Below are positions 2,899 through 54,710 of a stretch of 64,000 nt of DNA, piece by piece; positions within the stretch are counted from its first letter, which is position 1; each line of letters opens with the position of its first letter. Below the pieces are notes generated by a model. The model did not search any database. It worked only from the letters and a program-made list of their open reading frames with translations, and had not been told where the DNA came from. The translations under genes were made by a program, and so were the position numbers. Origin of the DNA: an uncultured Prevotellaceae bacterium (GTDB lineage: Bacteria; Bacteroidota; Bacteroidia; Bacteroidales; Bacteroidaceae); assembly GCA_946626595.1 (NCBI GenBank), contig CAMOUQ010000002.1, forward strand, positions 1-64,000, written 5' to 3'.

Positions 2899-5349
2899 TT
2901 ACTTTTCTTTATTCTCGGTGATGTCAAAATTGACGGCGTCTTTCACTTTCTCCTGCAGGAGGGCATAGTCGAAGACCTCCTTGACGTCCTCGACGTAGTG
3001 GAACGATACGCCGTGGAGGTACATTTCGGGTATCTCCTCGATGTCCTTGCGGTTCTCGCGGCAGATGATGATTTCGCGTATGCCGGCGCGCTTGGCTGCC
3101 AGTATCTTTTCCTTGATGCCTCCCACGGGCAGTACGCGTCCGCGCAGTGTGATTTCGCCGGTCATGGCCAGATAGGGGCGCACCTTGCGCTGGGTCAGTG
3201 CCGAGGCCAGCGAGGTGGCCATGGTGATGCCGGCCGAGGGTCCGTCCTTGGGTGTGGCGCCTTCGGGCACGTGGAGGTGTATGTTCCAGTGTTCGAAGAT
3301 GCGTGCGTCGATGCCCAGTTGGTCGGTGTGTGCCTTGATGTACTCCAGGGCCAGCATGGCACTCTCCTTCATGACGTCGCCCAGGTTGCCGGTGATGGTC
3401 AGCTGTCCGCCCTTGCCTCGGCTCAGGCTGGTCTCGATGAAGAGTATCTCGCCGCCCACGCTGGTCCATGCCAGTCCGGTGACGACGCCTGCGTTGCTGT
3501 TGCCCTGGTAGATGTCGCGGTTGTAGGGTTCCTTGCCCAGGAGCTGGCGGGCGGTGTCGACGTTGATGGTGGTCACCTGCTCGGCGTCTTCCTTGGCTAT
3601 GCCGAGGGCCACCTTGCGGAAGAGTTTGTTGAGCTGCTTCTCCAGGTTGCGCACGCCGCTCTCGCGTGTGTAGTGTTCGATGACGTATTCTATGGCTGCC
3701 TTCTGCATCTTGATGTCGCGTCGCTGGCTGAGTCCGTGTGCCTCCTTGGCCTTCTTGATGAGGTGGCGGCGGGCTATTTCTATCTTCTCCTCGGTGCAGT
3801 AGCCGCCCACCTCGATGAGCTCCATGCGGTCGAGCAGCGGGCGGGGTATCTGGCTGACGTCGTTGGCTGTGGCTATGAACATGACCTTCGAGAGGTCGTA
3901 GTCCATGTCGAGGAAGTTGTCGTGGAAGGTGGCGTTCTGTTCGGGGTCGAGCACTTCGAGCAGGGCCGAGGATGGGTCGCCGTTCATGGTGCGTCCGCTG
4001 ATTTTGTCTATCTCGTCGAGTATGAAGACGGGGTTGTTGGAGCCGGCCTTGATGATGTTCTTCAGTATGCGTCCGGGCATGGCTCCGATGTAGGTGCGCC
4101 GGTGTCCGCGTATCTCGGCCTCGTCGTGCAGTCCGCCCAGGCTGGCCCTGACGTATTTGCGCTTCAGTGCCGATGCTATGCTGCGCCCCAGCGAGGTCTT
4201 GCCGACGCCCGGTGGGCCGTAGAGGCAGAGGATTGGCGACTTCATGTCGCCCCTGAGCTTCAGCACGGCCAGGTGCTCCAGTATGCGCTCCTTGACCTCC
4301 TGCATGCCGTAGTGGTCGGCGTCGAGCACGCGCTCGGCGTTCTGTATGTTCAGGTTGTCCTCGGTGTATTCCTCCCAGGGCAGCTGCAGTATGGTCTGCA
4401 GGTGGTTCAGCTCGATGTTGTAGTCGGGGCTCTGCGGGTTGATGCGCTCCAGCTTGGAGAGTCCGTCGAGGAAGGCCTCGCGGGCGTACTGTGGCATCTT
4501 CTTGGCCTCCATGCGCTGGCGCAGCTGTTCGGCGTCCTTGGTGGGGCTGGCTCCGCCCAGTTCGTCCTGTATGTTCTTAATCTCCTGTTGCAGGAACCAT
4601 TCGCGTTGCTGGCGGTTCACCTCCACGTGTGTCTGCTGCAGGATGCGGTTCTTCATGTCCACCAGTGTCTGTGCCGAGTTGATGCACTGTATGAGGCGTG
4701 CCGTGCGCTCCTTCACGATGGCCATCTCCAGCATGTCCTGCTTGTCCTCCTCCTGCAGGGGCAGGCAGGTGCAGAGGAAGTCGACCATGAAGACCTCGTT
4801 GGAGATGTTCATGACGGCAAACTTGGCCTCGTTGGGCAGGTCCTCGTTGGTCTCGATGTAGTGTATGGCTCGCTTTCGGCTGGTGTCGGCCAGGACGTGG
4901 AATTCGATGTCGTTCGTGTCGGGATAGAACTCGGTGAGCTGCTCCACGGTGGCCTTCATGTAGGGTTTGGTGGTCACGGTCTCGCCCAGGCGTATGCGGC
5001 ACGAGGCCTGCAGTATGACGCTCACCTGCCCGTCGGGCAGTTCGAACAGTTTCACCACGCGTGCCACCACGCCCGTTGGGTAGAGGTCGTCCCGGGTGGG
5101 GTTCTCGGTGGCGGGGTTCTTCTGGCAGAAGGCTCCGATGAGCGAGCCCGCCTCGTAGGCATGTCGCACCATCTTGAGCGAGCTTTTCCGCCTGACGGCC
5201 ACGGGCGACATGACGCATGGGAACATGGTGAGTCCCCTCAGTGGCAGTATGGGCAGTATGGGGGGTATGGGCTGCTCGGTGAGTTGTCGGATATCTCCCT
5301 CAAAATCGGCGATAAAGGAGAATGGATTTTGTATCTGTTCTTCGCTCAT
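2899..5349 (-). CDS. lon: ATP-dependent protease Lon
   Basis: 816 aa; Walker [16 protein letters not shown]; catalytic region [34 protein letters not shown]-like N-terminus. Confidence 0.97.
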
Positions 5350-5384: not shown

Positions 5385-5496
5385 CGAAAAAGCCGTCAAA
5401 AAAGCAAATAAGTTTGCAAGTTTTCGGATAATAAACAATACACACGCCCACACAGAGGAATCTCGTCGACTGAGAAGTTGTGGCTTCAATGGGACA

Positions 5497-5767
5497 GGGG
5501 ACAAGGGGACAGGGGGACAAGCATTTTGGGCGCATACACCTAAATGGGTGTCCGCAGTTGATTACTTGTTTAATCGTTATATGTAAACTTATTTCTATAA
5601 TATATAAATGTTTTTATATATAAATATTCAGTCAATAATCTATTAAATATACTTAGATAAATTATATCTATATATAATAGTTTGAATAGTAATAATATGT
5701 ATAAAATTATCGTATAGAAAGAGGGGGCGGTCGTGCATTTTAGTTGTCCCCCTGTCCCCTTGTCCCC
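5497..5767. repeat. 24-bp perfect inverted repeat flanking a very AT-rich ~220-nt segment
   Basis: GGGGACAAGGGGACAGGGGGACAA at 5497-5520; exact reverse complement TTGTCCCCCTGTCCCCTTGTCCCC at 5744-5767. Confidence 0.8.
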
Positions 5768-5814
5768 CTTGTCACTACGCGAATGAGTATAGGGAAAGGC
5801 TGACAGGGACCGAA

Positions 5815-6012
5815 GAATAGTATAGCCAAGGTCGATACATCACGTTGTGACGGCTTACGCATAACGAAGCGCAGGCCATTGCTACACGAGGCGCAGGCCA
5901 TTGCTACACGAGGCGCAGACCGGGACATCACGATGCTCAGGCTATTGCAACACGAGGCATAGGCCAGCGCAACATGTAGCGGAAGCCAGGACAACACGAA
6001 TCTTAAATTCTC
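5815..6012. repeat. Degenerate tandem array, 22-nt period, about 9 units
   Basis: Contiguous 22-mers include ACATCACGTTGTGACGGCTTAC, GCATAACGAAGCGCAGGCCATT, GCTACACGAGGCGCAGGCCATT, GCTACACGAGGCGCAGACCGGG, ACATCACGATGCTCAGGCTATT, GCAACACGAGGCATAGGCCAGC, GCAACATGTAGCGGAAGCCAGG. Confidence 0.85.
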
Positions 6013-6065
6013 TAATTCTTGACGATAATTTTGGCACATTGCCCAAGATTTCGTACCTTCGCGGC

Positions 6066-6758
6066 ATGTTTCGGTTCAAGCAATTCACCATCCTGGACGA
6101 CCGCTGTGCCCACCGCGTGGGCACGGACGGCGTCTTGCTCGGGGCATGGGCCGATGTCTGTGGGGCACGTCGCATCCTGGACATCGGGACGGGCTCGGGG
6201 CTGGTGGCCCTGATGGCTGCACAGCGAAACCCCGTGGCCAGCGTGGTGGGCGTGGAGGTGGATGCCGCCTCGGCCCGGCAGGCACGGGAGAATGTCCTGC
6301 GGAGCCCATTCCGGGAGAGGGTGGTGATAGTGGAGGCTGATATCAGGGAATTTCGCACCGAAGAGTGTTTCGACTGCATCCTCTGCAATCCGCCCTTCTT
6401 CACCGAGGACACCCTGTCGCCCAATGCCCAGAGGGCGCGTGCACGGCATGCCGAGGGACTGCGTTTTGCCGACCTGCTGGCTGCCGCGTGTCGCCTGCTG
6501 TCGCCCAGGGGACGGTTTTATGTAATACTTCCATCGAATGCTGAAACTGAGTTTGTAAACCAGGCATTTATCAGCGGACTGCGGATGGTGCGCCGATGCC
6601 AGGTGCGCACCGTGCAGCGCAAGGCTCCGAAGCGCGTCATGATTGCCTTCTCGCGCGAGGGGACCATTGCCCTGGGCGGCGAGGAACTGCTGCTGCAGAA
6701 TGCCGACGGCAGTCGCAGCACCGAGTACTCCGATTTGACAAAAGATTTCTATCTCTGA
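6066..6758 (+). CDS. trmN6: tRNA1(Val) (adenine(37)-N6)-methyltransferase-like SAM methyltransferase
   Basis: MFRFKQFTILDDRCAHRVGTDGVLLGAWADVCGARRILDIGTGSGLVALMAAQRNP...CNPPFF motif. Start corrected to ATG 6066; the longer ORF from 5901 runs through the 22-nt array. Confidence 0.88.
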   Translation: MFRFKQFTILDDRCAHRVGTDGVLLGAWADVCGARRILDIGTGSGLVALMAAQRNPVASVVGVEVDAASARQARENVLRSPFRERVVIVEADIREFRTEECFDCILCNPPFFTEDTLSPNAQRARARHAEGLRFADLLAAACRLLSPRGRFYVILPSNAETEFVNQAFISGLRMVRRCQVRTVQRKAPKRVMIAFSREGTIALGGEELLLQNADGSRSTEYSDLTKDFYL

Positions 6759-7818: not shown

Positions 7819-7890
7819 GAAAATGAGAAATTTAGAAAATGAGAAATTTAGAAAATGAGAAAATGAGAAAATGAGAAAATGAGAAAGGGT
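7819..7890. repeat. 8-nt-period repeat, GAAAATGA/GAAATTTA
   Basis: GAAAATGA GAAATTTA GAAAATGA GAAATTTA then 4x GAAAATGA then GAAAGGGT; fills the gap between two minus-strand genes. Confidence 0.9.
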
Positions 7891-25678: not shown

Positions 25679-25738
25679 TACAATAATATAGCAGAGGCCA
25701 GTGCAACGTATTGCACTGGCCTCTGCTATACTATTGTA
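25679..25738. terminator. 28-bp near-perfect hairpin (1 mismatch, 4-nt loop) between convergent genes
   Basis: TACAATAATATAGCAGAGGCCAGTGCAA - CGTA - TTGCACTGGCCTCTGCTATACTATTGTA. Confidence 0.75.
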
Positions 25739-25835
25739 TCGCTCACTGCTACGTATTGTAGCTGTCTTTGCTACGTGTTGTAACGGGCTTTGCTACGTAT
25801 TGTAGCGGCCTTTACATCTCGATGTGCGCTACAGT
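25681..25835. repeat. Degenerate tandem array, 22-nt period (one 23-nt unit), about 7 units
   Basis: GCAACGTATTGCACTGGCCTCT, GCTATACTATTGTATCGCTCACT, GCTACGTATTGTAGCTGTCTTT, GCTACGTGTTGTAACGGGCTTT, GCTACGTATTGTAGCGGCCTTT, ACATCTCGATGTGCGCTACAGT. Confidence 0.88.
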
Positions 25836-34120: not shown

Positions 34121-34184
34121 TTAACCCTTTAACATTTTAACCTTTTAACATTTTAACTCTTTAACCTTTTAACCCTTTTTGACC
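34121..34184. repeat. 8-nt-period repeat TTAACCTT family
   Basis: TTAACCCT TTAACATT TTAACCTT TTAACATT TTAACTCT TTAACCTT TTAACCCT TTTTGACC. Confidence 0.92.
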
Positions 34185-35443: not shown

Positions 35444-35663
35444 CTAACTTAACCTATAGCCGTAAGTTACCGAACTTATGGCTGCATGTTGCCGAACCTA
35501 TGGGCGCATGTTGCCGAACCTATGGGCGCATGTTAACTTAACCTTCGGCCATTGCTTCGTATCGTCTGGTTTTAGTCCCTACGTCGATTGAGCTCAGACG
35601 ACGTATTGTCTGGCCTCAAACGACGTATTGTCTAAGCTCAAACGACGTATCGTCTCGGCGCAG
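35444..35663. repeat. Degenerate tandem array, 22-nt period, 9-10 units in unbroken phase
   Basis: From 35466: GTTACCGAACTTATGGCTGCAT, 2x GTTGCCGAACCTATGGGCGCAT, GTTAACTTAACCTTCGGCCATT, GCTTCGTATCGTCTGGTTTTAG, TCCCTACGTCGATTGAGCTCAG, ACGACGTATTGTCTGGCCTCAA, ACGACGTATTGTCTAAGCTCAA, ACGACGTATCGTCTCGGCGCAG. Confidence 0.9.
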
Positions 35664-35785
35664 ACAATATTAGGGCATTTATCATTGCGTCCGAATAAAT
35701 TGGTTAAATCCCTCACTTATTCGTATCTTAAACCTTCGGTTTTAGTCACTCTTGGTCGAAAATGCTCAAACATGTTTGGCATTTT

Positions 35786-52276: not shown

Positions 52277-54688
52277 ATGAAAAAGACAATTCTGCTATGC
52301 CTCATGTTGCTGGCGACTCTCATTGCATCGACTGCCGACGCCCAGAAGCAACCCGATGTCTGGCCCAACGGCGAACCGATGGACCAGTGGTTTGCCGATA
52401 CGGCCAAGGTCAATTCCCAGCTGCTGGGACGCCGATACGTCGTCACCCGACATGGCGTGCGCAGCAAGTGTCCCGACGTGCAGACCAAGGCCCTGCAGGC
52501 CGTCATCGACCAGGCTGCCCATGAGGGCGGCGGCATAGTCGTCATACCCAAGGGCACCTTCCTGACGGGGTCGCTCTTCTTCCGTCCGGGCACGCATCTG
52601 CACCTCGAGAAGGGTGCCGTGCTGAAGGGCTCGCAGTCGATTGCCGACTATCCCGTCGTAGAGACGCGCATCGAGGGACAGACGTGCAAGTACTTTGCCG
52701 CACTGGTCAATGCCGACCACGTCGACGGATTCACCATCACCGGCCCTGGCACCATCGACGGCAGCGGCAAATCCTTCTGGCAGGCCTTCTGGATTCGTCG
52801 CTCGTGGAACCCCGAATGCACCAACAAGGACGAGCAGCGTCCGCGCCTCACCTTTATCTCTAACTCCAGCAACGTAACCCTGCAGGATGTCAGGCTGATA
52901 AACTCTCCGTTTTGGACCAATCACATATACAAGTGCGACCACGTCCGATTCCTCGACCTCTACATCTATTCCTCCACCACCGACATCAAGGGACCCTCCA
53001 CCGACGCCATCGACATCGATGCCTGTCACGACGTGGTGGTGCGCGGCTGCTACATGAACGTCAACGACGATGCCGTGGTCCTGAAGGGCGGCAAGGGCAC
53101 CTTCGCCGACCAGGCACCCGAGAACGGACCTTGCTACAACATACTCGTGGAGCGCTGTCACTATGGGACGGTGCACGGCTGCATCACGGTGGGTTCGGAG
53201 AGCCTGCACGACTGGAACATCGTCATGCGCAACTGCGTGGCCGACGACACGCGCAACGTCCTCTGGCTGAAGATGCGCCCCGACACGCCCCAGCACTACG
53301 AGTGGATGCGCATCGAGGGCCTGTCGGGCCGATGCCGCAACTTCCTGCTCGTGCGCCCCTGGACGCAGTTCTACGCCAAGGGCAATCGCGACGACATGCC
53401 CCTGTCGCGATGCAACGACATCGCATTCAGCAACATCAGCATGCAATGCGAGCAGTTCCTCCACGTCGAGGGGTCGGACAAGTACAGCCTGCGCAATTTC
53501 TCTTTCTCCGACATTGCCTGCACGGAGAAGCACACCTCCACCCGTCGCCCCTTGCCCATCATCAACTGCCGCGTGGAGAACGTCGTCATCAACAGCCAGC
53601 CCTATTCGCCACATTCGTCAGCCCAAGGCGACAGCATCATCCAGGTGGCACGCCAGGCCAACGCATACTTCATGCAGCACAACCCCGACCCCACCGTCGA
53701 ATCCTTTGTCCACAACAAACGACGCCCCAGCCACATCTGGACGCGCGGCGTCTACTACGAAGGCCTCATGGCCCTCTACGACGTCTGTCGCGACAGCACA
53801 TACCTCGACTATACCGACCGCTGGGCCAACCACCATCGCTGGGCGCCGTGCGGCAATATGCGCACTACGCATGCCGACAACCAATGTTGCATGCAGACCT
53901 ACCTGGAACGCTATCGCATGACCCACGACCAGCGCATGCTGCAGGCCGTCCGGCACAATCTCGACCACCAGATGCAGACGCAACGCGTGAGCTACTGGAC
54001 GTGGATAGATGCCATACAGATGGCCATGCCCGTGTATGCACAGATGTACGGGACGACGGGCGAGCGAAGCTACATCGACTATGCCATGCGGGCCTACCAG
54101 TGGTGCAGGAACGAGTGCGGAGGAGGCCTCTATAATAAGGAAGAAGGCCTGTGGTGGAGAGACAAGGACTTCGTGCCACCCTACAAGGAAAAGGACGGAG
54201 CCAACTGCTACTGGAGCCGCGGCAACGGGTGGGTGTATGCAGCACTGGTCAGGGTGATGGACGAACTGTCGCCCGACGACCCCTACTTCGCCCAACTGCA
54301 TGCCGACTACATGTCGATGAGCCGTGCCTTGTTGGCCTGTCAGCGCGAGGATGGCTTCTGGAACGTCAGCCTTGCCTCGCCCACGACCTTCGGCGGCAAG
54401 GAACTGACGGGCACCTCCCTCTTCCTCTACGGCATGGCCTGGGGCATACGCCGTGGCTATCTCCAGGACGAGGCCTACCTCCTGGCCTGCGACAGGGCCT
54501 GGCAGGGTATGGCTCGCGAAGCAGTGCATGCCAACGGATTCCTCGGCTGGGTGCAGGGCACAGGCAAACAGCCCTCCGACGGGCAGCCTCTCTCCTACTC
54601 TCGCGTGCCTGACTTCGAAGACTACGGACTCGGATGCTTCCTCCTTGGGGCGGTGGAGTATTATAAGGTTAAAAAGTTAAAAAGTTAA
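52277..54688 (+). CDS. Secreted bifunctional GH28 (polygalacturonase-like) - GH105 (unsaturated uronyl hydrolase-like) fusion
   Basis: 803 aa; N-half GGGIVVIPKGTFLTGSLFFRPGTHLHLEKGAVLKGS, STDAIDIDACHDVVVRGCYMNVNDDAVVLKGGKG, HGCITVGSE; C-half DNQCCMQTYLERY, WSRGNGWVYAALVRVMDEL, GTSLFLYGMAWGIRRGYL. Confidence 0.9.
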   Translation: MKKTILLCLMLLATLIASTADAQKQPDVWPNGEPMDQWFADTAKVNSQLLGRRYVVTRHGVRSKCPDVQTKALQAVIDQAAHEGGGIVVIPKGTFLTGSLFFRPGTHLHLEKGAVLKGSQSIADYPVVETRIEGQTCKYFAALVNADHVDGFTITGPGTIDGSGKSFWQAFWIRRSWNPECTNKDEQRPRLTFISNSSNVTLQDVRLINSPFWTNHIYKCDHVRFLDLYIYSSTTDIKGPSTDAIDIDACHDVVVRGCYMNVNDDAVVLKGGKGTFADQAPENGPCYNILVERCHYGTVHGCITVGSESLHDWNIVMRNCVADDTRNVLWLKMRPDTPQHYEWMRIEGLSGRCRNFLLVRPWTQFYAKGNRDDMPLSRCNDIAFSNISMQCEQFLHVEGSDKYSLRNFSFSDIACTEKHTSTRRPLPIINCRVENVVINSQPYSPHSSAQGDSIIQVARQANAYFMQHNPDPTVESFVHNKRRPSHIWTRGVYYEGLMALYDVCRDSTYLDYTDRWANHHRWAPCGNMRTTHADNQCCMQTYLERYRMTHDQRMLQAVRHNLDHQMQTQRVSYWTWIDAIQMAMPVYAQMYGTTGERSYIDYAMRAYQWCRNECGGGLYNKEEGLWWRDKDFVPPYKEKDGANCYWSRGNGWVYAALVRVMDELSPDDPYFAQLHADYMSMSRALLACQREDGFWNVSLASPTTFGGKELTGTSLFLYGMAWGIRRGYLQDEAYLLACDRAWQGMAREAVHANGFLGWVQGTGKQPSDGQPLSYSRVPDFEDYGLGCFLLGAVEYYKVKKLKS

Positions 54689-54710
54689 AAGGTTAAAATG
54701 TTAAAAGGTT
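54663..54710. repeat. 8-nt-period repeat TTAAAAGG/TTAAAATG/TTAAAAAG
   Basis: AAGG TTAAAAAG TTAAAAAG TTAAAAGG TTAAAATG TTAAAAGG TTCTTG; first units encode the KVKKLKS* C-terminus of the GH28-GH105 protein. Confidence 0.9.

Follow-up and report, generated by a model that had tools for sequence, protein, structure and literature searches.

The nearest published element to the repeat arrays described here is BrickBuilt of Porphyromonas gingivalis, a minisatellite/MITE made of spacerless, intergenic 23-nt tandem repeats (consensus AGAYCATARTATCCTCTCRTRTG) that is found at ~19 loci per genome with a leader, a tail and small terminal inverted repeats (PMC4596501). PINSR of Prevotella intermedia is a 188-bp intergenic repeat of ~180 copies with no terminal inverted repeats (PMC4755523). 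In the literature that we searched, which was mostly non-subscription, no description of 22-bp-phased dyad arrays was found, and an earlier description is possible. Plasmid iterons such as those of R6K (22 bp) are also tandem sites, repeated roughly every two helical turns and bound by the initiator, and ParR/parC centromere repeats comprise about four to five contiguous sites of 11-20 bp on which the protein forms a superhelix.

Here we analysed a 64,000-nucleotide window of an uncultured Prevotellaceae genome, in which a degenerate tandem array lies between the divergent genes lon and trmN6 (Table 1). Autocorrelation of positions 5815-6012 was 0.602 at period 22 and ~0.59 at 44 and 66, compared with 0.256 (sd 0.033) at period 22 in dinucleotide shuffles, of which 0 of 2000 were as high; the top shuffle value across all periods from 5 to 59 was 0.407. 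The tandem array is thus real, with phase agreement on autocorrelation far above random, and Tandem Repeats Finder called 5864-5974 as a period-22 repeat, with a 66-nt super-period across 5860-6000. A sequence-only reading had counted about nine contiguous 22-mers; a position matrix refined on the arrays of its sequence family (family A) recognises eight of these, the two terminal ones being degenerate, and does not accept 5815-5836 as a unit. The strict 22-nt phase that it had described is borne out by autocorrelation and by core spacing, unrelated units included, and its exclusion of CRISPR stands, as the array is built of 10-bp cores and 12-bp linkers, and the linkers often recur inside arrays, whereas CRISPR repeats measure about 23-47 nt and alternate with unique spacers of like length. 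BLAST against 40 relatives, plasmids and phages returned no direct homologues of the array.

Table 1 Arrays, cores and neighbouring genes (window positions, except where an L handle precedes the number)
Feature	Position	Strand	Details
lon, ATP-dependent protease	2899..5349	-	left, divergent neighbour; Lon_C, LON_substr_bdg, AAA domains
lon/trmN6 array, family A	5837..6012	+	eight 22-bp units, consensus ~RCWWCRCGADGC-N10; TRF, autocorrelation, position matrix
Unit starts, lon/trmN6 array	5837, 5859, 5881, 5903, 5925, 5947, 5969, 5991
Dyad cores, lon/trmN6 array	5838..6001		relaxed CVWYRYRWBG at 5838, 5882, 5904, 5926, 5948, 5970; 22-bp phase
Degenerate cores, lon/trmN6 array	5860, 5992
trmN6-like methyltransferase	6066..6758	+	right neighbour of lon/trmN6 array; MTS domain
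Second family-A array	25732..25824	-	unit ACAACACGTAGCAAAGCCCGTT; cores 25749, 25771, 25793, 25815
22-bp array, different sequence family	35451..35534		AACCTATGGGCGCATGTTGCCG; third array's intergenic region
Third array	35555..35674		core and phase as lon/trmN6 array; units CGACGTATTG / CGACGTATCG
Cores, third array	35555, 35577, 35599, 35621, 35643, 35665
Family C elements	L034 1433, L016 4040, L010 14131, L027 5978
Further family C elements	L038 15864, L019 15451, L044 19087, L035 2911

The array ends ~20 bp upstream of a likely Bacteroidetes-type trmN6 promoter (TTTTGG ... TACCTTCG; ~6032-6059), called by eye, and the array may influence trmN6. In two sister species (L100 and L107) the lon/trmN6 gap measures ~100 bp and the array is absent, while other arrays were found beyond trmN6; the nearest relative, G642, falls outside this comparison as its contig starts downstream of trmN6. 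The flanks of the array match those of no other family-A array. Within the lon-to-array interval, an inverted pair of GGGGACAAGGGGACAG-type repeats (5487-5521 and 5745-5773) encloses ~290 bp of AT-rich DNA and looks like a MITE or a large stem. Intergenic 8-nt tandem repeats (GAAAATGA, AAAAGGTT, TTAACCTT) occur at 1721-1769, 7819-7886, 34121-34178 and 54668-54710 of the window and recur genome-wide and in relatives. A search of Rfam 15 gave no match above gathering score in the window or at the arrays.

It had also been proposed from the letters that three arrays of the window form a shared family, and this is upheld. Positions 25732-25813 scored 28.1 on the minus strand against the family-A position matrix (shuffled maximum 13.4), which places that array in family A with the lon/trmN6 array; the unit quoted as its last (25814-25835) is in phase, with a core at 25815, and the third array (35593-35655 in the earlier reading) shares the core and the phase. 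The profile further matches L014, L028 and L054 in the source genome, and family A includes these three together with the lon/trmN6 array and the array at 25732, which is on the opposite strand. Three-core matches with at most two mismatches numbered seven in the window versus 0.02 expected and fell in two of the three arrays, and the remaining array carries single cores in register. A palindrome with arms of ~19-21 bp (ATAGCAGAGGCCAGTGCAA; 25690-25732) abuts the second array.

Such arrays are abundant in the source genome (1.196 Mb), where one detector found 43 tandem arrays at period 21, 22 or 23, compared with 40 summed over the remaining periods from 12 to 59 and 0-2 at each period neighbouring 21-23. 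The same contrast is seen in G069, with 19 arrays at period 22 versus six at every other period from 12 to 59 combined, while the detector returned none at 21-23 in 200 kb of E. coli K-12 and none at any period in block-shuffled source sequence. Arrays of period 21-23 split into several sequence families. Among these, family C consists of dispersed palindromic elements in which long terminal inverted repeats (GCGAGGAAAAGTTCCGCC) flank 21-nt units; their total length is nearly constant, and they are MITE-like.

Families A, B and E have one self-complementary core, C-V-W-Y-R-Y-R-W-B-G (CVWYRYRWBG), which all three window arrays carry. In the intergenic DNA of the source genome, pairs of cores are separated by 22 bp in 17 regions, by 44 bp in 10 and by 66 bp in 7, compared with 0-3 at the remaining distances up to 70 bp. 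For units identical at no more than 12 of 22 positions the counts were 9, 8 and 6 at these three distances versus 0-1 elsewhere, and therefore the phase survives across unrelated sequence. Mixed arrays also occur, with L047 passing through families B, E and D in succession and L014 through A and then a B-like sequence. Since the core was picked by eye from the source genome alone, we tested it on other genomes. The exact three-core pattern matched 20 of 60 other genus members (21 of 61 including the source genome), with 196 matches in G069, 125 in G071 and 92 in G009, versus 0-3 among genus members for the reversed core pattern that served as control. It was found family-wide in 29 of 301 genomes and 10 of 30 genera (nine besides that of the source), and in 2 of 294 other genomes of an order-wide sample. 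Core pairs in G069 numbered 56 at 22 bp, 33 at 44 bp and 19 at 66 bp, with at most 2 at other distances. This core pattern is absent from 40 of the 60 other genus members, and the core differs by species (CAACRYGTTG in G069; CCACACGAGG in G042; CCACRYGTGG and CGAYGCRTCG in G053). Three genomes (G147, G418 and G476) have 48-162 matches to the reversed core pattern in 22-bp phase; the control is not neutral there, and these genomes probably bear arrays of their own, built on some other core.

In intergenic DNA the distances between dyad centres are 11, 22, 33 and 44 bp, with flat profiles in coding and shuffled DNA; an initial detector without loops, which was later refined, gave mainly the 11-bp peak. 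A unit thus contains a pair of dyad axes with 11 bp between them. Of four genomes, three have a linker profile that is itself dyad-symmetric (r 0.70-0.91, p <= 0.0015), the fourth being G053 (r 0.37, p 0.05), and within single arrays dyad symmetry is significant in some families only. As it is not significant for the lon/trmN6 array taken alone (p 0.14), our argument rests on the spacing of the cores. Pairing within the core is not conserved in G000, where positions 2-9 are complementary in 59% of cases, or in G042, where positions 3-8 are complementary in 26%, which fits half-sites better than stems.

Among the sister species G069, G071 and G009, six orthologous comparisons could be made in which both genomes have the array. 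Identity was 216 of 230 in cores (94%; 224 of 230 when a core flip is allowed) and 115 of 204 in linkers (56%), the latter below that of the flanks (~84%), and all 17 orthologous linkers were 12 nt long. Phase was kept in the compared arrays and so was unit number, barring gains, losses and breaks at two further sites: one (A3) has an array in G069 only, and at the other (A4) the G009 array stops exactly at a core edge. At one orthologous site three of three linkers were replaced together (TCTTTCCMAWCW to AAACCGYCGACW), leaving cores and length unchanged. With cores and spacing kept and linkers diverging beyond their flanks, core and phase are constrained and linkers free. We infer selection on core and phase together with rapid recombinational renewal of linkers, and the in-phase replacement of units suggests that arrays seem to be renewed through unit-to-unit recombination. 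A neutral minisatellite, in which slippage or unequal exchange multiplies a palindromic 22-mer that then spreads passively, with its spacing a relic of duplication, would explain the array-wide linker replacement typical of concerted evolution, the gain or loss of arrays between sister species (A3), and the likeness of adjacent linkers in G069 (7.5 of 12 positions versus 5.0 of 12 for random linkers); P. gingivalis also has known 23-nt minisatellites (PMC4596501). However, neutral linkers should change no faster than their flanks and should accumulate indels, whereas the linkers seen here are less conserved than both flanks and cores and 0 of 17 changed in length. The phase also spans units of unrelated sequence, and periods of 21-23 are common to unrelated families, which leaves passive duplication unlikely.

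The spacing, the constraint on the dyad core, the free linkers, the two axes and the poor conservation of stems together favour a stacked dimeric protein. We propose that the arrays could be clustered operator-like sites, at which dimers of a sequence-specific DNA-binding protein would stack every two turns, a proposal whose chances of being right we regard as close to evenly balanced. One dimer would read the near-palindromic core of each 22-bp unit, neighbouring dimers would meet at the weaker dyad axis 11 bp off in the linker, and cooperative binding of dimers stacked at two-turn steps could yield a short filament of ~4-5 dimers. The resulting nucleoprotein patch may act at transcription-unit boundaries or organise the nucleoid. 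Protein contact, which the sequence-only reading had raised, gains indirect support from the phase across unrelated units, the free linkers and the two dyad axes; its further suggestion that each unit presents the same DNA face is only roughly true across 4-5 units. In relaxed B-DNA 22 bp make 2.1 turns, a drift of ~34 degrees per unit. This drift and the dyad p value of 0.14 at the lon/trmN6 array speak against a bound protein, as do the good RNA folding of arrays (mean z between -3 and -6 across the main genomes) and the co-variation of core positions 2 and 9 in G053 and G000, which is also expected of a stem. Species-specific and often missing cores would likewise be unusual for a housekeeping nucleoid protein.

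Cores flip blockwise between CAACACGTTG and CAACGTGTTG, and hardly any single-step intermediates occur in G069. This pattern, the inter-species breakpoint exactly at a core edge (A4) and the free mixing of half-sites in family B could reflect arrays of recombination sites, at whose cores a site-specific recombinase shuffles or flips the 12-bp linkers. Homologous recombination or conversion between units accounts for the same facts, though, no recombinase is implicated and unit number is mostly constant, and we find this model very improbable.

Noncoding arrays of seven genomes number 38 in tandem, 19 in convergent and 7 in divergent gaps, where gap length alone would predict ~33, 11 and 19 (gene calls came from a script of ours, and for G042 and G053 the pieces used were selected for holding arrays). 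The divergent lon/trmN6 gap is therefore atypical, its array belonging to a rare class while the majority sit near gene 3' ends. In G069, 10 of 10 tandem arrays are 17-137 nt past the upstream stop codon with the next gene start 89-479 nt away, and arrays are frequent in convergent gaps; tandem-gap arrays of G069 and G042 taken together lie 7-137 nt past stop codons. One 22-bp array (L155 1405-1698) stops just short of a cobalamin riboswitch. Tandem RNA hairpins that act as terminators or stabilisers at transcript 3' ends would suit these positions, the folding scores, the T-run after half of the G069 arrays and the riboswitch directly after one array. Yet T-runs are at the level of control stretches in G000 (0-6%) and G042, nested linkers are non-complementary, the stem is interrupted by the cores found in G000 and G042, core orientation is independent of transcription, and no transcript ends in the divergent gap of the lon/trmN6 array. 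This makes hairpins at transcript ends rather improbable. One long selected hairpin was ruled out by the non-complementary nested linkers, and an intrinsic terminator was rejected as a general reading, T-runs following only half of the arrays in G069 and occurring in G000 and G042 about as often as in the controls.

Arrays that are palindromic, intergenic, dispersed, species-variable and close to gene 3' ends, as extragenic REP/RAYT palindromes are, could also be selfish palindromes of the REP/BIME kind, or a MITE that is mobilised in trans. Some copies do ride a larger dispersed element, since L028 (85-495) and L054 (8990-9385) have ~100 bp in common on both sides, in inverted orientation, and family C has the long terminal inverted repeats noted above. 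Nevertheless, G069 (97% complete, 196 matches) lacks a Y1/RAYT transposase; the Y1 tyrosine transposase is equally absent from G071, G009 and G073, with a sub-cut-off match only in G000. The flanks of G069 arrays have no common leader, tail or inverted repeats and no left-right pairs, so every array there stands alone, and a fixed 22-bp phase is foreign to REPs. We accordingly hold a selfish or mobilised origin to be quite improbable.

Beyond the clustered operator-like sites themselves, we suggest, with considerable doubt, an undescribed class of Bacteroidales chromosomal nucleoprotein element: 22-bp-phased dyad arrays that lie, dozens to a genome, at transcription-unit boundaries. Their core would track a putative DNA-binding protein while the two-turn geometry stays fixed and recombination at the cores swaps the linkers. 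Unrelated dyads fixed at exactly 22 bp indicate selection on geometry and not on sequence. A protein that reads this geometry, should there be one, would be a new DNA-organising or boundary factor of fast-changing specificity, with a logic comparable to that of fast-evolving satellite-binding systems. The hosts, a bacterium of the rumen together with its relatives, belong to a family of gut bacteria that are abundant and mostly uncultured, and a species-specific core such as CAACRYGTTG is a ready bait that makes the protein question directly testable.

In their strict two-turn spacing of sites the arrays are iteron-like, but iterons are direct repeats at one origin, whereas the present arrays consist of dyads and occupy dozens of places on the chromosome; ParR/parC likewise occupies a single site per plasmid. 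PINSR is similarly amplified and intergenic in a related genus, and the accessible part of its account presents a single 188-bp sequence and reports no 22-bp architecture (PMC4755523). REP/BIME elements with their RAYTs (GTAG/CGTC REPs) are short multicopy extragenic palindromes enriched near 3' ends as well (PMC3733652), and the present arrays differ in strict 22-bp phase, free linkers and the lack of a RAYT in G069. BrickBuilt comes closest, with degenerate intergenic repeats in Bacteroidales and partly conserved positions within units. Its 23-nt repeat AGAYCATARTATCCTCTCRTRTG is not the unit of the present arrays, RCWWCRCGADGC-N10 being unrelated and CVWYRYRWBG a misfit, and whereas BrickBuilt is one 23-nt repeat family with a leader and a tail, the present arrays comprise many families with unshared flanks in G069, a period of 22, variable linkers and a family-wide spread.
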